From positions 868,001-932,000 of the forward strand of contig NZ_CP058910.1 in NCBI RefSeq assembly GCF_013415885.1: a stretch of DNA of 64,000 nucleotides, in the 5' to 3' direction. The stretch is from Halosimplex rubrum. Its GTDB lineage: Archaea > Halobacteriota > Halobacteria > Halobacteriales > Haloarculaceae. Both the position numbers and the translations under genes were made by a program. Shown in pieces: positions 2,678-64,000 of the stretch; positions within the stretch are counted from its first letter, which is position 1, and every line of letters begins with the position of its first letter. A model generated the notes under the pieces. The model saw nothing but the letters and a program-made list of their open reading frames with translations, searched no databases and was not told the DNA's origin.

Positions 2678-3655
2678 ATGGACCAAGTATCACCCGTCGC
2701 CGCGGCGCTGCTGGTCGTGCTCGCCGCCGTCGGCGCAGTGCCGGTCGCCGCGCTGTCGGGTTCCGGGCTCGACGCACGACAGACCGCCGCGAACGAGACG
2801 GCGAACGAGTCGCTGGCGCCCGGCGAACGGTTCGCCGGCGTCGTCGGCGTCGAACAGGCCGAGATATCGGGCGAACTCGAGGCCAGAGCGTTCGGCCAGC
2901 GGATCGCCGCCGCACGGTCGAACGCGTCGACCGCCGGCGTCGTCGCCGACGAGGTGTCGAACCTGAACGAGCGGCTGGCGGAGCTCGACGGACGGATGGC
3001 CGAACTGGAGCGGGCCCACGAGAACGGGACGCTCAGCGAGGGGCAGTACCGCGCTCGACTGGCGCGAGTCCACGCCGAGCAACGCGCGCTCCAGCGGCAG
3101 GTCAACCAGACCGAGTACGTCGCCCGCGAACTCCCCGCCGCGGCGCTCGAAGCGAAGGGCGTGAACGTGAGCGCCATCGAGACGCTCCGGACGCGGGCCA
3201 GCGAGATGAGCGGACCCGAAGTCGCGGCCATCGCGCGGAGCATCGCCGGGAAGAACGCCGGCAGCGGCATGGGCGGCCCGCCCGAACAGGCAGGCCCACC
3301 GGCGTTCGTGCAGAACCGAACTAGCGGTCCGGGCGCACCCGGGAACGGCAACGGAGGCGGACAGGGAAATGGCGGTCCGCCCGCTGACGCCGGCTCGAAC
3401 AACGAAACCGGCCCGCCCGCCGACGTTGGCCCGAACAACGAAACCGGCCCGCCCGCCGACGTTGGCCCGAACAACGAAACCGGACCGCCTGCCAACGTTG
3501 GTCCGAACAACGAAACCGGTCAGCCCGCCGACGCCGGCGCAAGTAACCAGACCGGATCACCCGCCGACGCCGACCAGAACGACGGGACCGAACGCGCCGG
3601 GAACGGCGGTTCGGGCGGCAGTGACGACGGTGCCGGCGGTTCGAACGCCGAGTAG
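2678..3655 (+). CDS. Secreted coiled-coil protein with C-terminal 12-residue repeats (DUF7096-like)
   Basis: The 325-residue product begins with a signal peptide (residues 2-26), followed by an Ala/Glu-rich helical region with heptad character (about 55-190). It ends in a low-complexity tail rich in Gly, Pro, Asn and Asp that contains a 12-residue unit NNETGPPADVGP. The start ATG at 2678 is supported by a strong Shine-Dalgarno sequence (AAGGAGGA at 2664-2671), unusual beside the many leaderless genes here. The helical part resembles haloarchaeal proteins annotated DUF7096. Several N-x-T/S sites suggest a glycosylated cell-surface protein. No enzymatic function is apparent. Confidence 0.7.
   Translation: MDQVSPVAAALLVVLAAVGAVPVAALSGSGLDARQTAANETANESLAPGERFAGVVGVEQAEISGELEARAFGQRIAAARSNASTAGVVADEVSNLNERLAELDGRMAELERAHENGTLSEGQYRARLARVHAEQRALQRQVNQTEYVARELPAAALEAKGVNVSAIETLRTRASEMSGPEVAAIARSIAGKNAGSGMGGPPEQAGPPAFVQNRTSGPGAPGNGNGGGQGNGGPPADAGSNNETGPPADVGPNNETGPPADVGPNNETGPPANVGPNNETGQPADAGASNQTGSPADADQNDGTERAGNGGSGGSDDGAGGSNAE
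3398..3577 (+). repeat. Five tandem 36-bp units inside the secreted-protein gene
   Basis: Units start at 3398, 3434, 3470, 3506 and 3542. The first three are nearly identical in DNA (AACAACGAAACCGG then CCGCCCGCCGACGTTGGCCC in register) and the last two diverge. The unit length is a multiple of three, so copy-number change keeps the frame. This looks like recent slippage or unequal exchange in a surface-protein tail. Confidence 0.85.
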
Positions 3656-7207: not shown

Positions 7208-8109
7208 GAGTGAAGGTCGGCATCCTCTACTCCCGGATCCGCCGGGACGAGAAGCTCCTGCTGAACGAGCTGCGTGAGCGCGACCACGAGGTCGTCAAGG
7301 TCGACGTGCGCAAGCAGCGCTTCGGGCTCTCGGAACCGCCCGAGGACATGCGCGGCGTCGACGTGCTCGTCGACCGCTGTCTGGCGACGAGCCGCTCGCT
7401 GTACGCCACGGAGTTCGCCGACGCCTACGGCATCCCGGTCGTCAACAGCGCCGAGACCGCCGAGGTCTGTGCGAACAAGGTGAAAAACAGCCTCGCGCTG
7501 GAGAAGGCGGGGGTCCCCACGCCCGCGACGGACGTGGCGTTCACGAAGGACGCCGCCCTCGAGAGCATCGAGGACTTCGGCTATCCCTGTGTCCTCAAGC
7601 CCGTGGTCGGGTCGTGGGGTCGCCTGATGGCGAAGATCGACTCCCGGTCGGCCGCGGAGGCGATCCTCGAACACAAGGAGACCCTGGGCCACTACGAGCA
7701 CAAAGTCTTCTACATCCAGGAGTTCGTCGACAAGCCGGGCCGGGACATCCGTATCGTCGCGGTCGACGGCGAGCCGGTCGCCGGCATGGTCCGCTCGTCG
7801 GACCACTGGCTGACCAACGCCGCCAAGGGTGCCGAGACCTCGGAGATCGAGATCACGCCGGAGATGGAAGACCTCGTCACCAAGGCCAGCGACGCGGTCG
7901 GCGGCGGCCTCCTGGGGATCGACCTCATGGAGACCGGCGTCGGCGAGGACGGCGAGCCCTCGGGCTACACCGTCCACGAGGTCAATCATACTGTGGAGTT
8001 CAAGGCGCTCGACGAGGTCACCGACGTGGACGTGCCCGCGACGGTCGTCGACTGGCTGGAGACAACCGCCGGCGCCGGCGAGAGCGAGACCGCAGAGGCG
8101 GCGACATGA
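7204..8109 (+). CDS. argX: Glutamate--LysW ligase ArgX (LysX/RimK-type ATP-grasp)
   Basis: ATP-dependent ligase that attaches glutamate to the C-terminal Glu of LysW. The 301-residue protein has the ATP-grasp core (YPCVLKPVVGSWGRLMAKI near residue 125 and FVDKPGRDIRIVAVDGEPVA near 178) and the N-terminal MKVGILYSRIR expected for LysX/ArgX. The GTG at 7204 overlaps the lysW stop; a second GTG at 7210 is an equally plausible start and fits the family N terminus slightly better. Choice of glutamate over aminoadipate is inferred from the arginine context. Confidence 0.93.
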   Translation: MRVKVGILYSRIRRDEKLLLNELRERDHEVVKVDVRKQRFGLSEPPEDMRGVDVLVDRCLATSRSLYATEFADAYGIPVVNSAETAEVCANKVKNSLALEKAGVPTPATDVAFTKDAALESIEDFGYPCVLKPVVGSWGRLMAKIDSRSAAEAILEHKETLGHYEHKVFYIQEFVDKPGRDIRIVAVDGEPVAGMVRSSDHWLTNAAKGAETSEIEITPEMEDLVTKASDAVGGGLLGIDLMETGVGEDGEPSGYTVHEVNHTVEFKALDEVTDVDVPATVVDWLETTAGAGESETAEAAT

Positions 8110-8125
8110 CGGGAGAGGAGACCGC

Positions 8126-12249: not shown

Positions 12250-13133
12250 ACTTCCTCGACGTCGACGACCTCACGACCGGCGAACTGGCGGCCGTCCTCG
12301 ACCGCGCGGCGGCGATCAAGACCGACTACCGCGAGGACGGCGCGACCGACCTGCTGGACGGTCAGACACTCGGGATGATCTTCGAGAAACCGTCGACGCG
12401 GACGCGCGTCTCCTTCGAGACCGGCATGACCCAGCTGGGCGGTCACGCCGTCTTCCTCGGTCCAGACGACATCGGGCTGCACGGGCGCGAACCCGTGAAG
12501 GACATCGCGCGGGCGCTCGGTCGCTACGTCGACTTCGTGATGGCCCGCGTGTACGACCACGCCGACGTGGTCGAACTCGGCGAGTACGCCGAGGTCCCCG
12601 TCATCAACGCGCTGACCGACGACGCCCACCCCTGCCAGACGCTCGCCGACCTGCTGACGATCCGCGAGCACTTCGACGACCCGACGGTCGCGTGGGTCGG
12701 CGACGGCAACAACGTCTGCCAGTCGTTCGTCCTCGGCGCGGCGATGTCCGGCCTAGACCTGACCGTCGCCACGCCCGAGGGGTACGGCGTCGACGAGGGC
12801 GTCCTCGAGCGCGCCGAGGGGCTCGGGACCGCACCGGCGACGACGACCGACCCCGAGGCCGCCATCGCCGACGCGGACGTGGTGTACACGGACGTGTGGG
12901 TCAGCATGGGTCAGGAGGACGAGCGCGCGGAGAAGCTGGCGGCCTTCGAGGGCTTTCAGATCACGCCCGAGTTGCTTGGCGACCGCGCGCTGATGCACTG
13001 TCTGCCCGCCCATCGCGGGGAGGAGGTCACCGACGCCGTCATCGAGAGCGACAACGCCATCGTCTGGGACCAGGCCGAGAACCGCCTGCACGCCCAGAAA
13101 GGGCTGCTGGCGTGGCTGGCCGAGCAGGAATAG
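12246..13133 (+). CDS. argF: Ornithine carbamoyltransferase
   Basis: Makes citrulline from ornithine and carbamoyl phosphate, linking the LysW branch to argG and argH. The 295-residue enzyme has the carbamoyl-phosphate site EKPSTRTR (47-54), HPCQ (128-131), the SMG loop (220-222) and HCLPAHRG (251-258). Its last 64 or so coding bases, together with the stop codon and 10 bases beyond, occur again 231 bp downstream after a structured element. The gene itself is full length and intact. It is the last gene of the operon. Confidence 0.96.
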   Translation: MNFLDVDDLTTGELAAVLDRAAAIKTDYREDGATDLLDGQTLGMIFEKPSTRTRVSFETGMTQLGGHAVFLGPDDIGLHGREPVKDIARALGRYVDFVMARVYDHADVVELGEYAEVPVINALTDDAHPCQTLADLLTIREHFDDPTVAWVGDGNNVCQSFVLGAAMSGLDLTVATPEGYGVDEGVLERAEGLGTAPATTTDPEAAIADADVVYTDVWVSMGQEDERAEKLAAFEGFQITPELLGDRALMHCLPAHRGEEVTDAVIESDNAIVWDQAENRLHAQKGLLAWLAEQE

Positions 13134-13297
13134 CGTCCGCGCGAGCGAAGCGAGGTGCGACGAAAGGAGCACCTCGTTGCGAACGGCGCGAAGCGCCGTG
13201 AGCGCAGTGAGCGCGTTTTTCGCCCACGTTTTTCTCCTCGGGTGTCCTCAGTCGCTTCGCTCCCTGCGAGCACCACTCGTCGAAAAACGTGGCTGCC
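13134..13297 (+). repeat. Structured intergenic element, copy 1 (after argF stop)
   Basis: Starts at the base after the argF stop. It holds a hairpin CGAGGTGC (13151-13158) / GCACCTCG (13169-13176), a series of AGCG-rich palindromes, and a long-range perfect inverted repeat CCACGTTTTTC (13224-13234) / GAAAAACGTGG (13282-13292). Five bases later the second copy of the argF 3' end begins. T-tracts at 13216-13220 and 13229-13233 could end transcription of the arginine operon. Homologous to the element after pheT. Confidence 0.75.
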
Positions 13298-13374
13298 GGA
13301 CCAGGCCGAGAACCGCCTGCACGCACAGAAAGGGCTGCTGGCGTGGCTGGCCGAGCAGGAATAGCGTCCGCGCG
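13298..13374 (+). repeat. Duplicate of the argF 3' end (77 bp, one mismatch)
   Basis: Bases 13298-13374 match 13067-13143 with one difference (GCACAG for GCCCAG). The copy begins at GGACCAGGCC, runs through the stop codon and ends ten bases beyond. It has no start of its own and is not a gene. The offset is 231 bp. Confidence 0.95.
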
Positions 13375-13556
13375 CCCGCGGCGCGCGGTTCACCGGGCCG
13401 AACGGAGTGAGGCCCGCTTTTTGCCCCACCTTTTTGCGCGGGTGGTCTCGGAGCGAGCGGAGTCGTTCGAACGAGCGCTACGCGCTCGGTCGTGATGACG
13501 AGAGAGCTTGGCTCTCTCGGAGTACGAGCGAGGATACCCGAGCGGAAAAAGGTGGG
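13375..13556 (+). repeat. Structured intergenic element, copy 2 (divergent)
   Basis: Follows the duplicated argF end and runs to the stop codon of the convergent M50-like gene. It contains GGGCC-AACGGAGTGA-GGCCC, the T-rich stretch CTTTTTGCCCCACCTTTTTG and a perfect inverted repeat CCCACCTTTTT (13425-13435) / AAAAAGGTGGG (13546-13556). Two smaller hairpins lie in the loop. The T-tract stem matches copy 1 in design but with C-G swapped for G-C. Confidence 0.7.
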
Positions 13557-14042
13557 TTAGGACCGGACGAGCCTGAGGAACTGTTTCCCGTCGCTGTCCA
13601 GTCCGGCGTAAGCGCCGCGGGAGTACGTCCGCGGCACGATGGTCTGGACGGCCCGGAAGAATTCGCTGTAGAAGATCGCCCGCAGGCAGAACGATATCGG
13701 GGTGGTACCGTCGCGGAACATGACCGGGCCCAGCGCCGCGACGATGAGGACCGTCATCGCCGGCCCGGCCGCGATGGAGGCCGTTCGGACGCGCTTCGAG
13801 TGCGTCCCCTCCCACTCGTGATACCCGTAGGCCACGAGCTTCCGGACGCCGTCGAACCCGACCGTTACCGTCAGCGGACCGAAGCGGGCCGTCCGCCCCG
13901 AGTCGCTCCCGACCGAGATGTGTGAACTGCCGCCCGCGAGCAGGACCGGCGCGGCGTGGGCGGCCTCGTGGAGGAAGAGCGCGACGACGATCCCGACGAC
14001 AGCGGCCGGGACGGCCAGCGCGTACAGTAGCACGTCGCTCAT
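13557..14042 (-). CDS. Small M50-like (site-2 protease type) membrane metalloprotease
   Basis: A 161-residue membrane protein. A first hydrophobic helix carries the zinc motif HEAAH (His25, Glu26, His29) and the C terminus has YAGLDSDGKQFLRLVRS, matching the second metal-ligand region (DG) of compact M50 peptidases. Such enzymes cut membrane-spanning substrates within the bilayer. The protein is short, with about four membrane segments. No substrate can be named. Its stop codon abuts the repeat element on its 3' side. Confidence 0.62.
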   Translation of the reverse strand: MSDVLLYALAVPAAVVGIVVALFLHEAAHAAPVLLAGGSSHISVGSDSGRTARFGPLTVTVGFDGVRKLVAYGYHEWEGTHSKRVRTASIAAGPAMTVLIVAALGPVMFRDGTTPISFCLRAIFYSEFFRAVQTIVPRTYSRGAYAGLDSDGKQFLRLVRS

Positions 14043-50047: not shown

Positions 50048-51577
50048 ATGAAACTTCCGGAAACGCAGGTCGCCGTGCTCGAAGCCGCGAGCGCGGACGA
50101 CCCCACACCAGTCGAACAGATCGCCGAGGAGACCGGCGAGCAGGTCCAGGCGGTGGCCGGCGCCGCCTTCGAACTCGAAGCACAGGGCTTGCTCGCCGTC
50201 ACCGAACGGACCGACGCCGAACTCGTCCTCACCGAGGAGGGCGATGACTACGCCTACGACGGCCTGCCCGAACACAGCCTCTGGGTCGGCGGCCTCTCCA
50301 ACGACGCCGTCGACGAGCCGATCGAACTCGGTCAGGCCATCGGCCGCGGCGGCCTGGAAGACGAACAGGTCGAGATCGCGCTCTCGAACTTCGCCCGCAA
50401 GGGCATGGGGACCATCGACAGCGGCTCCATCCAGGTCGACCCCGACTTCGACCTCGAAGCCGATGCCGAGCGCACGCTCCTCGAAGTGCTCCGCGGCGAG
50501 GAGGGCGAGATCGCCCCCGACGAGGCCGACGAGGAAGCCGTCGCGTCGCTCGAACGCCGCGGGCTCGTCGAACGCGAGGAGTCGACGGTGCGGGAGGTCA
50601 CGCTGACCGACGAGGGCGTCACCGCGATGATGGAGGGCATCGAGGTCGCCGAGACCGTCGGTCAGATCACGCCGGAACTGCTGACCTCCGGCGAGTGGGA
50701 GGCGGTCGAGTTCGCCGAGTACAACGTCCAGGCGGACGCCGAGACGGTCCACGGCGGCAAGCCCCACGCGCTGCGGGAGATGTCCGAGCGCGTCACGGAC
50801 GTGCTCGTCGGGATGGGCTTCGAGGAGATGCAGGGGCCCCACGTCGACGCCGACTTCTACATCAACGACTGCCTGTTCATGCCCCAGGACCACCCGGCGC
50901 GCAACCACTGGGACCGCTTCGCCCTCGAGGAGCCGGCGGCGATCGACCGCGAGCACCTCCCGCCGGATCTCGTCGACCGCGTCGAGGCCGCCCACCGCGA
51001 CGGCGTCGGCCCCGACGGCGAGGGGTATCACTCCCCCTGGGACGAGGACTTCGCCCGGGCGCTCGCGCTGCGCGGCCACACCACGAACCTCTCGGTGCGT
51101 CACCTCGCCGGCCTCGCCGAGGGCGACCTGGAACCGCCCCAACGGTACTTCTCCATCGAGAAAGCGTATCGCAACGACACCCTCGACTCGACGCATCTGC
51201 TGGAGTTCTTCCAGATCGAGGGCTGGGTGATGGCCGAGGACCTCTCGGTGCGGGACCTGATGGGCACGTTCACCGAGTTCTACGAGCAGTTCGGCATCAC
51301 CGACATCCAGTTCAAGCCCCACTACAATCCCTACACCGAGCCGAGCTTCGAGCTGTTCGGCCGCCACCCCGAGACGGACGAACTCATCGAGATCGGTAAC
51401 TCGGGCATCTTCCGCCCGGAGATGCTCGAACCGCTCGGCGTGGAGGCCGACGTGATGGCGTGGGGACTCGCGCTCGAACGGCTGTTCATGCTCGCGACCG
51501 GCGCCGAAGACATCCGCGACGTCCACGGCACGCTCGTGGACCTGGAGTTCCTGCGGAACGAGGAGGTGGTGTACTGA
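50048..51577 (+). CDS. pheS: Phenylalanyl-tRNA synthetase alpha subunit
   Basis: Catalytic subunit of the alpha2-beta2 class IIc enzyme that charges tRNA-Phe. The 509-residue protein has N-terminal winged-helix domains typical of archaeal and eukaryotic PheS. Motif 2 is QRYFSIEKAYRND and motif 3 is GLALERLFMLATGAEDIR near the C terminus. The ATG at 50048 follows a possible TATA box. Its stop shares a base with the pheT ATG (TGATG at 51575-51579). Confidence 0.96.
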   Translation: MKLPETQVAVLEAASADDPTPVEQIAEETGEQVQAVAGAAFELEAQGLLAVTERTDAELVLTEEGDDYAYDGLPEHSLWVGGLSNDAVDEPIELGQAIGRGGLEDEQVEIALSNFARKGMGTIDSGSIQVDPDFDLEADAERTLLEVLRGEEGEIAPDEADEEAVASLERRGLVEREESTVREVTLTDEGVTAMMEGIEVAETVGQITPELLTSGEWEAVEFAEYNVQADAETVHGGKPHALREMSERVTDVLVGMGFEEMQGPHVDADFYINDCLFMPQDHPARNHWDRFALEEPAAIDREHLPPDLVDRVEAAHRDGVGPDGEGYHSPWDEDFARALALRGHTTNLSVRHLAGLAEGDLEPPQRYFSIEKAYRNDTLDSTHLLEFFQIEGWVMAEDLSVRDLMGTFTEFYEQFGITDIQFKPHYNPYTEPSFELFGRHPETDELIEIGNSGIFRPEMLEPLGVEADVMAWGLALERLFMLATGAEDIRDVHGTLVDLEFLRNEEVVY

Positions 51578-53409
51578 TGCCGACCGTCGAGATAGACCCC
51601 GACGAGCTCCGAGAGCTCACCGGCCACGACGAGAAGAGCGACGAACAGCTGCGCGAGGACATGTTCGCCCTCGGCCTCGAGTACGAGGGCGAGACCGACG
51701 ACGGCGAGTTCGAGCTGGAGTTCGCGCCCGACCGACTCGACCGCCTCTCGGTCGAGGGTGTCGCCCGCTCGCTGCGCTACCAGTACGGCGACGACCGGGG
51801 CGTCTACGTCCCGACGACCAACGACGCCGACTGGACCATCGAGGTCGACGCCGACGTGCCCGACGAGCGCCCGTACGTCACCGGCGCCGTCGTCCGCGGG
51901 CTGGACATGGACGAGGCCGCCCTCGAATCGCTCATCCAGCTGCAGGAGAAGCTCCACGCGACGATGGGCCGCCAGCGCGCCAAGGGCGCCATCGGCGTCC
52001 ACGACCTGACCATGCTGAAGGGCCAGGTCGGCGCTACCGGCGGCGAGGACACGCCCGAGGAGGAGGCCGACCCCCGCACCGAGGTCGCGCCCTCGGGCGG
52101 CAACTCCGTCCGCTACACCGGGATCGGCAAGCGCGAGGACCGCTTCGTCCCCCTGGAGGAGAACCACGAGATGACTCCCCAGGAGGTCTTGATGGCCCAC
52201 CACACCGCAAACAAGTTCTCCGACTTGGTCGAGGACTACGGGTCGATGCCGGCCATCTACGACGACGTCGGGATGTTCTCGTTCCCGCCGATCATCAACG
52301 GCAAGCGCACCGAGGTCACCACCGACTCCCGGGATCTGTTCGTCGAGATGACCGGCACCGACCAGTGGACGATCGACCACATGCTCAACATCGTCTGCTA
52401 CGCGCTCGACGCCCGCGGCGGCCGCGTCGAGGAGATCGAAATCGAGTACGCCGACGACGCAAGCGGCGACTACGCGGGCAACACGCTCGTCCGCCCGAAC
52501 TTCGAGACGAAGACCAAGACCGTCGACCACGCCGACATCGAGTCGATGCTCGGGATCGACCTCGACGGCGAGGAAGTCGTCGACCTGATGCAGCGCGCCG
52601 GGTTGGACGCCGCCGCGGACGACGACACGGAACGCGAGCCCGAGCGGCGGGAGACCCCGGACGCGAGCGCCGACGCGCTGTCCTACGAGGTGGAGATCCC
52701 GCCCTACCGCGTGGACGTGCTCCACCCCGTCGACGTGATCGACGACGTGGGCCGGGCCTTCGGGTTCAACGAACTCGACCCCCGCTACCCCGACGTGTCC
52801 ACCGTCGGCGGTCGCCACGACCGCTCCCGGCTGGAGCGGGCCGCCCGCGAGTCGCTCGTCGGGCTCGGCTTCGAGGACCTGCTCAATTTCCACCTCATCA
52901 GCGAGGCGGCCAACTACGAGCGACCGGGCGTCGAGCGCGGCAGCGACGCCCTCGGCGGCGGCGAACCCGCCGTCATCGGGGAACCCTACAGCGAGGACTA
53001 CGAGATCGTCCGCACCTGGGCGTTGCCCTCGATCATGCTCGTCCTCGAAAACAACACCCACCGGTCGTACCCCCAGCACCTCTCGGAGGTCGGGCTCGCC
53101 ATCGAGCAGGACGAGACCCAGCCGACGCTGGTCGACGAACGGCACACCGTCGCGGCCGCGCTCGCCCGCCACGACGCCTCCTACGAGGACGCCAAGGCCA
53201 GCCTCCAGGCGCTGTGTCGCGCCTTCGACGTCGAGCTGGCCACCCCGCCGACCGACCACCCGACGTTCATCTCCGGCCGCACCGCCGACATCGTCATCGA
53301 CGGCCGGAAGGTCGGCGTCATCGGCGAGGTCCACCCGAAGGTGCTCGTCGAGTACGATCTGGAGGTCCCCGTCGCGGCCTTCGAGTTCGAACTGGACGCG
53401 CTCCGGTAG
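51577..53409 (+). CDS. pheT: Phenylalanyl-tRNA synthetase beta subunit
   Basis: The 610-residue partner subunit has the B3/B4 tRNA-editing region (about 100-300, RAKGAIGVHDLTMLKG then MFSFPPIINGKRTEVT), B5 and the catalytic-like core. It edits mischarged Tyr-tRNA-Phe. The archaeal short form is expected. The final 55 or so bases are repeated 236 bp downstream behind a structured element, but this gene is complete. Confidence 0.96.
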   Translation: MPTVEIDPDELRELTGHDEKSDEQLREDMFALGLEYEGETDDGEFELEFAPDRLDRLSVEGVARSLRYQYGDDRGVYVPTTNDADWTIEVDADVPDERPYVTGAVVRGLDMDEAALESLIQLQEKLHATMGRQRAKGAIGVHDLTMLKGQVGATGGEDTPEEEADPRTEVAPSGGNSVRYTGIGKREDRFVPLEENHEMTPQEVLMAHHTANKFSDLVEDYGSMPAIYDDVGMFSFPPIINGKRTEVTTDSRDLFVEMTGTDQWTIDHMLNIVCYALDARGGRVEEIEIEYADDASGDYAGNTLVRPNFETKTKTVDHADIESMLGIDLDGEEVVDLMQRAGLDAAADDDTEREPERRETPDASADALSYEVEIPPYRVDVLHPVDVIDDVGRAFGFNELDPRYPDVSTVGGRHDRSRLERAARESLVGLGFEDLLNFHLISEAANYERPGVERGSDALGGGEPAVIGEPYSEDYEIVRTWALPSIMLVLENNTHRSYPQHLSEVGLAIEQDETQPTLVDERHTVAAALARHDASYEDAKASLQALCRAFDVELATPPTDHPTFISGRTADIVIDGRKVGVIGEVHPKVLVEYDLEVPVAAFEFELDALR

Positions 53410-53586
53410 CTCCGCGAGCGAACGGGGCGAGGTGCGACCGGAGGACGCACCTCGGTGTGAACGGGGAGCGAAGCGACCCGTGAACGGAGTGAGCGAGCGT
53501 CTTTTTGCCCCATCTTTTTGCGGTGAGCGGTGCCCGCAACCCGGCGAAGCCGGGTGAGGACATCCGAACCGGAAAAAGGTGGTCGC
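53410..53586 (+). repeat. Structured intergenic element, copy 3 (after pheT stop)
   Basis: Begins at the base after the pheT stop. It shares with the argF element the hairpin CGAGGTGC (53428-53435) / GCACCTCG (53447-53454), the AGCG palindromes, the T-rich stretch CTTTTTGCCCCATCTTTTTG and a distal stem CCATCTTTTT (53510-53519) / AAAAAGGTGG (53573-53582) with one G-T pair. The copied pheT end follows four bases later. Confidence 0.75.
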
Positions 53587-53641
53587 AGTACGACCTGGAG
53601 GTCCCCGTCGCGGCCTCCGAGTTCGAACTGGACGCGCTGCG
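53587..53641 (+). repeat. Duplicate of the pheT 3' end (55 bp, three mismatches)
   Basis: Matches 53351-53405 with three base differences. In the same frame it would encode the last residues of PheT with Phe to Ser at one site, then two extra residues and a stop at 53649-53651. It has no start and is not a gene. Confidence 0.92.
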
Positions 53642-53711
53642 AAGCGACTGACGGCGTATCCGTCCGTTCCCCCGAGCCGCTTTCTGTGGGCGATCCGCTA
53701 GCAGCCGACGG

Positions 53712-58855: not shown

Positions 58856-60328
<1,473 letters not shown>

Positions 60329-60363
60329 ACTGACCGGGACTGGGGCGTCGCCCCAGCCCACCT

Positions 60364-60417
60364 TCTAGCGTCCCGCGACCGCCCGCAGACCGGGCACCTA
60401 TGAACTACCAGGGTTAA
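60364..60417 (+). other. 16S pre-rRNA processing stem, 3' arm
   Basis: Complements the 5' arm at 58729-58785. It ends just before tRNA-Ala. Confidence 0.85.
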
Positions 60418-60421
60418 CGAC

Positions 60422-60493
60422 GGGCCCATAGCTCAGCGGCAGAGCGCCGCCTTTGCAAGGCGGAGGCCCTGGGTTCAAATCCCAGTGGGTCCA
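60422..60493 (+). tRNA. tRNA-Ala (anticodon TGC)
   Basis: 72 bases with a 7-bp acceptor stem (GGGCCCA/TGGGTCC with one G-T pair), anticodon loop TTTGCAA, T-arm GGTTCAAATCC and discriminator A. No intron. Its place in the 16S-23S spacer is typical of euryarchaea. Confidence 0.98.
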
Positions 60494-60509
60494 TGTCACG
60501 TACGGCGAT

Positions 60510-60545
60510 TCGAACCGTGTCCCTTAAGTGGGTCACTCCACTCGA
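60510..60545 (+). promoter_or_regulatory. Internal promoter in the 16S-23S spacer
   Basis: TTCGAACCG and CCCTTAAGTGGG match the layout of the P1 and P2 boxes upstream of 16S. A transcript from here would carry 23S and 5S without 16S or tRNA-Ala. Confidence 0.6.
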
Positions 60546-60648
60546 ATCGTAGTACGGAAGACCGGTGCACCATCCCGTGCGAACGCGGATGGGAAGGGTC
60601 GATGCACGCGCCACCTCACTCGTGGGTGTGCAGATGAGACTGTGTGTA

Positions 60649-60680
60649 CGTGCGATCCAGGCGTCCACTGGACTCGTTCA
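60649..60680 (+). other. 23S pre-rRNA processing stem, 5' arm
   Basis: GTGCGATCCAG and CTGGACTCGTTCA are perfectly complementary to CTGGATCGCAC and TGAACGAGTCCAG at 63718-63749, downstream of 23S. Confidence 0.88.
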
Positions 60681-60697
60681 TCGAGTCCAACGACGTA

Positions 60698-60774
60698 GGA
60701 GATCCATCACTGGATCTCCACATTCGGAGGTCCCTCACCGGACCTCCACATTGAAGGTCCCTCACCGGACCTTC
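60698..60774 (+). repeat. Three tandem 22-base hairpins in the 16S-23S spacer
   Basis: 60698-60719, 60726-60747 and 60753-60774 are each an 8-bp perfect stem with a 6-base loop. The stems read GGAGATCC/GGATCTCC, GGAGGTCC/GGACCTCC and GAAGGTCC/GGACCTTC. Differences between copies are compensated on the other arm. They end ten bases before 23S. Confidence 0.9.
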
Positions 60775-60783
60775 TCCACTAAC

Positions 60784-63697
<2,914 letters not shown>

Positions 63698-63717
63698 TCA
63701 TACGCACTGCGACTCGC

Positions 63718-63749
63718 TGAACGAGTCCAGGCGCAATCTGGATCGCACG
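63718..63749 (+). other. 23S pre-rRNA processing stem, 3' arm
   Basis: Complement of 60649-60680. Confidence 0.88.
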
Positions 63750-63828
63750 TATCACACGGTTCCTATCGACCACCGATACTGGTATCCGAACGCGGTGTTC
63801 GGACGCGGTTCGATTCCGCGGATCGGCG

Positions 63829-63950
63829 TTAGGGCGGCCATAGCGGCGGGGCGACACCCGTACCCATCCCGAACACGGACGTTAAGCCCGCCTGCGTTCC
63901 GGCGAGTACTGGAGTACGAGAGTCTCTGGGAAACCTGGTTCGCCGCCTCC
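63829..63950 (+). rRNA. rrf: 5S ribosomal RNA
   Basis: 122 bases beginning TTAGGGCGGCCATAGCGG and ending CGCCGCCTCC, with the conserved loop CCCATCCCGAACACGG. Terminal bases pair (GGCGGC/GCCGCC). Confidence 0.95.
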
Positions 63951-64000
63951 ACTCATTTCTGGCCATCCCGGCCAGGTTCATCACCCTCGACCAGTCTCAT
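63951..64000 (+). other. Downstream of 5S: small hairpin
   Basis: CTGGCC-ATCC-CGGCCAG (63960-63976) is a stable hairpin about ten bases after 5S. It may mark processing or termination. No gene is visible before the window ends. Confidence 0.35.

Follow-up and report, generated by a model that had tools for sequence, protein, structure and literature searches.

Gene 3′ ends duplicated around a dispersed T-tract hairpin in Halosimplex rubrum and other haloarchaea

Organization of the pheT and argF loci

The gene pheT of Halosimplex rubrum is followed by a T-tract hairpin and a second copy of its own 3′ end, and argF of the same chromosome (4,480,147 bases) is built likewise. The features of both loci are listed below. 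Coordinates without a further label are positions in the window, i.e., the whole 64,000-nt stretch of the H. rubrum chromosome that was analyzed, while L and G numbers are our labels for loci and genomes.

pheT locus
51577..53409, + strand: pheT (phenylalanine--tRNA ligase beta), open reading frame, pheT_arch TIGR00471 with E=5.6e-117, stop codon TAG at 53407-53409
53348-53350, + strand: TCG just ahead of the first copy, the 3-nt match at the joint
53351..53405, + strand: pheT 3′ end, first copy, inside the gene
53410..53501, + strand: GC-rich cassette of the 3′ UTR, contains short inverted repeats and has related sequence at unrelated loci
53502..53582, + strand: T-tract and hairpin, TTTTTGCCCCATCTTTTT...AAAAAGGTGG, arms at 53510-53519 and 53573-53582
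53583..53586, + strand: joint TCGC, i.e., TCG as in the gene at 53348-53350, then one extra C
53587..53641, + strand: pheT 3′ end, second copy, 52/55 against 53351-53405
53642..53651, + strand: second copy continued to its stop, AAGCGACTGA, TGA at 53649-53651

argF locus
13067..13143, + strand: argF 3′ end, first copy, stop codon TAG at 13131-13133
13216..13292, + strand: hairpin, its loop reversed against its own arms by comparison with other hairpins
13293..13297, + strand: joint CTGCC, i.e., CTG as in the gene, then two extra bases
13298..13374, + strand: argF 3′ end, second copy, found by repeat comparison and by the de novo scan
13418..13555, + strand: second element, a different hairpin without a copy behind it, adjoining a convergent open reading frame (13557-14042, - strand)

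A preliminary description of the window had reported the repeat of the pheT 3′ end with an element in between, and this was borne out: the two copies lie 236 bp apart and enclose the T-tract and the hairpin. The second copy runs on to ...ALRSD*, while a similar gene end, ...ALRND*, is the sole one in the element-free congener G007, and the sequence that follows resembles the downstream sequence of element-free congeners such as G007. Thus the older gene end appears to be that of the second copy; the first copy, now ending in ...ALR*, appears to have taken its stop codon from the inserted sequence. A relative of the UTR and hairpin (window 53413-53582, query 114-283) was found at G000:C1:2463241-2463416 with 77% identity. 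It is located behind an unrelated locus and consequently this 170-bp cassette is dispersed.

At argF, the repeat 13067-13152 / 13298-13383 comprises 94% identity. The preliminary description had set argF apart from pheT because a second element follows there. Such an element does follow; however, it is a dissimilar hairpin that abuts a convergent open reading frame. Thus argF and pheT share one structure, consisting of gene end, hairpin, gene end and original downstream sequence, and the element at 13418-13555 is probably argF's original terminator. The loop of the first argF hairpin (13216-13292) is reverse-complemented relative to the arms, with CTCCTCGGGTGTCC... where others have CGAGGAGTGGT..., which suggests an inversion between the hairpin arms.

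Among Rfam families only rRNA and tRNA were detected in the window, and no covariance model matched the hairpin. A complete rRNA operon (16S, tRNA, 23S, 5S) lies at the window's end (58856-63951), and a tandem repeat of six overlapping 108-nt matches with 36-nt spacing is found at 3337-3624, probably within a coding region.

The hairpin family

The motif T5-CCCA-T5 occurs exactly three times in the window, twice at argF and once at pheT, while none would be expected by chance; a wider form of it occurs 30 times in the genome. The inner tracts of the TTTTTGCCCCATCTTTTT...AAAAAGGTGG motif form a hairpin by pairing (z = -3.9 in the DNA fold at pheT). When 25 hairpin copies were aligned, the outer arms were near-invariant, while both partners of three inner pairs were substituted in 8 to 10 sequences with pairing retained. 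These compensatory changes demonstrate that the hairpin structure is conserved. The family has the terminal inverted repeats CCCAYSTTTTT/AAAAASGTGG and is found, together with the UTR cassette, behind unrelated genes.

T-tract and stem-loop stand close behind the stop codon (median distance from stop to T-tract 37 nt at loci with a copy) and, with the conserved structure, these are traits of a terminator. Since the terminators of Haloferax include T-stretches and hairpins, such a role is plausible, and judged by its sequence the hairpin in place probably acts as an ordinary T-tract/hairpin terminator. The gene-end copy, in turn, probably has no function. Right flanks of the GATGG type (e.g., L106 and L119) show a weak consensus T-Y-K-C-G-M-A-A after GATGG, possibly a promoter or an extension of the element.

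Frequency and distribution of gene-end copies

Hairpins were collected by pattern from the H. rubrum genome, seven congeners and named genomes of the class Halobacteria, and the sequence behind each hairpin was compared with the sequence ahead of the same hairpin. Among the first 80 testable hairpins of the GGTGG type from named genomes, 38 had a copy, while mismatched pairings gave low scores. In the entire haloarchaeal collection, a gene-end copy, usually including the stop codon, was present within a few bases of 83 out of 210 hairpins. Sorted by right end, copies accompanied 78/160 GGTGG, 2/35 GATGG, 2/13 AGTGG and 1/2 CGTGG hairpins, whereby these sets, such as the 160 GGTGG hairpins, include orthologues and related loci and are not independent. 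Copies were commoner with the loop motif GAGYGG (59/97) than without it (19/63), and most frequent if the gene's stop codon was at most 60 nt from the T-tract (56/75). If a convergent open reading frame ended within 12 nt of GGTGG, none of 30 hairpins had a copy, against 73 of 113 otherwise; what adjoins the right edge of the hairpin is thus often the end of a convergent gene or else a repeat of the upstream gene's end. A stricter form of the pattern was detected in 115 out of 391 genomes of the class, and the family of H. rubrum accounts for most of these 115.

The H. rubrum genome itself harbors at least ten such loci (argF, pheT, L052, L053, L055, L056, L108, L118, L120, and L058). An element-blind de novo scan for repeats, as proposed in the preliminary description, covered 864 kb, composed of the window and 40 evenly spaced 20-kb stretches (19% of the genome); beyond this sample the genome was covered by the pattern searches. 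The scan revealed three gene-end repeats around a hairpin (pheT, argF, and L058:18815) and one without (L059:2364, spacing 307). The latter is a gene-end duplication of 122 bp (L059:2364-2485 / 2671-2792) with 121/122 identical positions, 307 bp apart and with no T-tract hairpin in between. The phenomenon is hence confined neither to the two initial cases, nor are repeats lacking the element equally common, both of which had been named as findings that would speak against a common process. Other repeats observed were a non-coding 120-bp direct repeat with many GAGCGAAGCG-type motifs (L059:7783-7902 / 7998-8117, 215 bp apart) and what appears to be a tandem array, with direct repeats spaced by 120 and 159 bp (L060:3376-3676).

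Two simple accounts were rejected. Chance, already doubted in the preliminary description, is ruled out by the pairing comparison, the de novo scan and the motif expectation, and the pattern recurs at a large number of unrelated genes. Integration specific to the 3′ end of a single gene is ruled out too, as it is copies of many genes without relation to one another that flank the same element. The same recurrence agrees with the earlier proposal of a shared process tied to gene 3′ ends.

Joints and arrays

In most loci the copy starts 112-243 nt ahead of the right end of the hairpin and 30-140 nt ahead of the stop codon (median 52, from a table in which seven stop assignments are evidently wrong). 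Duplication lengths thereby differ by more than 100 bp between loci. The right joint is more regular. Where the gene reads NNN-rest, 28 of the 56 testable loci, far more than chance would give, have a joint that reads GGTGG-NNN-x-rest and so contains one additional base; the 56 include orthologues and yet comprise 14 different triplets. Among the same 56, four joints showed no shift, four had two additional bases and none lacked a base, with about one expected by chance for each. The extra base was C in 19 cases, T in 6 and G in 3. Of all features of the pattern this regular joint is the strangest, and no known process accounts for it. Inspection by eye of the genes revealed no recognition motif ahead of the joint. 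An explanation by reading frame was discarded, as the copies of pheT and L152 lie, by eye, in different frames relative to the hairpin and follow no common rule.

Altogether, 73 loci with a copy were compared. In 59 the copy is not followed by any hairpin, in 11 by a hairpin and a further copy, and in three by a terminal hairpin, which is dissimilar at argF and L247 and similar at L260. Nearly all 73 loci thus obey the rule [gene-end + hairpin]n + gene-end, with n hairpins and n+1 gene-end copies. This fits an insertion with target duplication and not a plain tandem duplication, which the preliminary description had likewise considered inadequate. The long target duplication that it had suggested instead suits the form of the arrays, since they end in a bare gene-end copy.

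Evolution of the duplicated gene ends

The pheT arrangement is present in G000, G002, G005, G022, G023, and G008. On the pheT gene tree six changes are needed to account for this presence, as many as with shuffled labels. Seven changes are needed for a second gene (L230 and its orthologues), which shows one left boundary in many genomes of what is evidently the genus of L230 (Haloarcula amylolytica). In two pairs of sister genomes, G012/G067 and G002/G007, one member has exactly one repeat and hairpin more than the other, and overall the arrangement is gained and lost quickly. Individual cases had been called independent. This has to be qualified: at a given gene several species share the left boundary, so some cases would have been inherited or exchanged and then homogenized or lost.

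Copies resemble the gene beside them: the pheT copy differs from its own gene at 0-3 of 55 positions, while 6-17 differences are found between species, and for the L230 orthologues the mean is 2.7/36 differences to the own gene vs. 6.8. Such likeness would result from gene conversion that is still going on, from repeated formation or from the two combined. Gene conversion that equalizes genome copies is among the processes documented in polyploid Haloferax volcanii (PMC8223754, PMC11276520).

Discussion

How could a gene end come to stand on both sides of a hairpin? Our best, though tentative, explanation (probability about 0.45) is a template switch to another dispersed terminator repeat, copying of its hairpin and re-entry upstream, with gene conversion and recombination between the repeats acting afterwards. 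During repair or replication, the growing strand would leave at the gene's own terminator (3′ UTR/T-tract) and switch, via short homology among dispersed terminator repeats, to a hairpin-bearing terminator elsewhere. At L178, L215, L216, and L230 the second copy extends through the UTR into TTTTTCGCCC(ACGTT) and then diverges, as expected if the exit occurs in the terminator. The donor hairpin would then be copied up to its fixed right end GGTGG, and the strand would re-enter the original template 50-150 nt ahead of the T-tract, where a match of about 3 nt would guide it. Re-entry would leave about one extra base, and the gene end would be copied anew. The product would have the order that is observed, gene end, hairpin and gene end, followed after the second copy by the older 3′ end and the DNA downstream. 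Subsequently, gene conversion may keep the two copies as alike as they are found to be, and recombination between them may yield the observed arrays or restore the empty site.

Template switching explains why the elements are oriented as they are and lie at gene ends, why the left joint varies while the right one is fixed, and why there are n+1 copies. However, it leaves the regular extra base unaccounted for, as generic microhomology repair would not place an extra base at +4 with such regularity, in half of all joints. In addition, re-entry downstream should be as frequent as re-entry upstream, and one boundary in several species also fits old insertions that were inherited, exchanged and lost. 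A donor-recipient pair for a recent insertion was not identified.

A dedicated enzyme would account for the extra base. The hairpin might be a true non-autonomous mobile element, similar to MITEs or small mobile repeats (SMRs), that inserts at terminator T-tracts with a long and variable target duplication (30-140+ bp) and is served by an enzyme in trans, a possibility that we consider doubtful. The fixed right end with its regular NNN-plus-one-base joint, the n hairpins with n+1 gene-end copies, the terminal inverted repeats CCCAYSTTTTT/AAAAASGTGG, the orientation tied to the gene and the patchy distribution would all fit. Against this stand the variable left end and the size and spread of the duplications, as we know of no transposase family with comparable target duplications. 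Furthermore, no candidate enzyme was found in a search limited to reverse transcriptase. Transposase-free small mobile repeats are known in Haloquadratum, yet those lack target duplications (PMC3119063). That we are dealing with a new kind of archaeal mobile hairpin, inserted into gene 3′ ends by dedicated machinery with a fixed joint rule (three bases of the target, then one extra) and with a long target duplication by which the gene stays intact, is likewise conceivable rather than likely. If true, it would allow repeated insertion and precise loss.

Unequal crossing-over or slippage could have tandem-duplicated a gene end together with its existing terminator hairpin, the downstream hairpin being lost later. 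The multi-unit arrays, the similar terminal hairpin behind the copy at L260 and second copies that retain only the start of the hairpin motif point in this direction. Still, we regard such an origin as unlikely: the downstream hairpin would have to be lost and the upstream one kept in nearly all 73 loci, and at argF and L247 the last copy is followed by a dissimilar hairpin.

Even less probable is that the copy is retained for a function, for example in templating an antisense RNA that would terminate at the T-tract of the reverse strand, or in providing a homology arm by which hairpins might spread more readily between strains. While this T-tract directly adjoins the copy, the boundary is constant at the same gene across several species and copies match their own gene, such likeness is explicable by neutral gene conversion, on the pheT tree the arrangement is no less scattered than shuffled labels would be, and the pheT copy of G000 turns a conserved Phe codon into Ser. 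The mRNA-derived copy invoked by the preliminary description, reverse-transcribed and recombined behind the gene, or else a retro-type insertion by target priming, would explain duplicated stretches at the transcript's 3′ end that sometimes reach the T-tract, the one fixed and one variable end and the extra base, but such a route is highly improbable, since no RVT_1 reverse transcriptase matched in the complete H. rubrum genome and the cassette can be copied from DNA to DNA.

Whatever the process, the pattern points to a recurrent route by which non-coding hairpins would enter gene 3′ ends across a whole archaeal family, leave the gene unbroken and later exit without a trace. It also tells annotators how spurious C-terminal fragments downstream of genes can arise. 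Because the one-base scar is so regular, the mechanism becomes testable, i.e., a dedicated enzyme against repair-driven template switching.

Comparison with known systems

A search of openly accessible literature by title and abstract gave no description of the arrangement of gene end, hairpin and gene end, so that a prior description is possible. The preferred template switching has a counterpart in FoSTeS/MMBIR-like events, which join a distant insert to a flanking local duplication with few matching bases at the joint. Such features are found here as well, whereas the fixed end of the hairpin and the one-base offset at +4 show an unusual regularity. Diversity-generating retroelements consist of variable repeat, hairpin and template repeat and need a reverse transcriptase. 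They share with our loci a gene 3′ end, a hairpin and a near-identical copy of that end. In contrast, no reverse transcriptase was found here and the hosts are housekeeping genes (pheT, argF). REP/BIME palindromes of bacteria, associated with TnpA_REP, are dispersed extragenic hairpins often located near gene ends and are in this respect alike, while their sequence differs; adjacent gene-end copies are, to our knowledge, no feature of theirs.

Haloarchaeal terminators resemble our loci in having a T-tract and hairpin behind the stop codon: for Haloferax volcanii, T-stretches and hairpins are described in passages on terminator signals and activity, in which copied gene ends, the feature seen here, are not mentioned (PMC7237163). 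The SMRs of Haloquadratum walsbyi cause no target duplication, SMR-A favor other mobile elements and their route of movement is unknown (PMC3119063). As with SMRs and MITEs, which are short, non-coding and dispersed, with terminal inverted repeats and no transposase of their own (PMC3119063), our hairpin is short and non-coding, has terminal inverted repeats and occurs in many dispersed copies. However, about 80 of the 210 hairpins carry a gene-end duplication of 30-140 bp, whereas SMRs have none, and thus the hairpin does not belong to the SMRs. MITE duplications follow those of the helper transposon, while the duplications described here vary in length by more than 100 bp.
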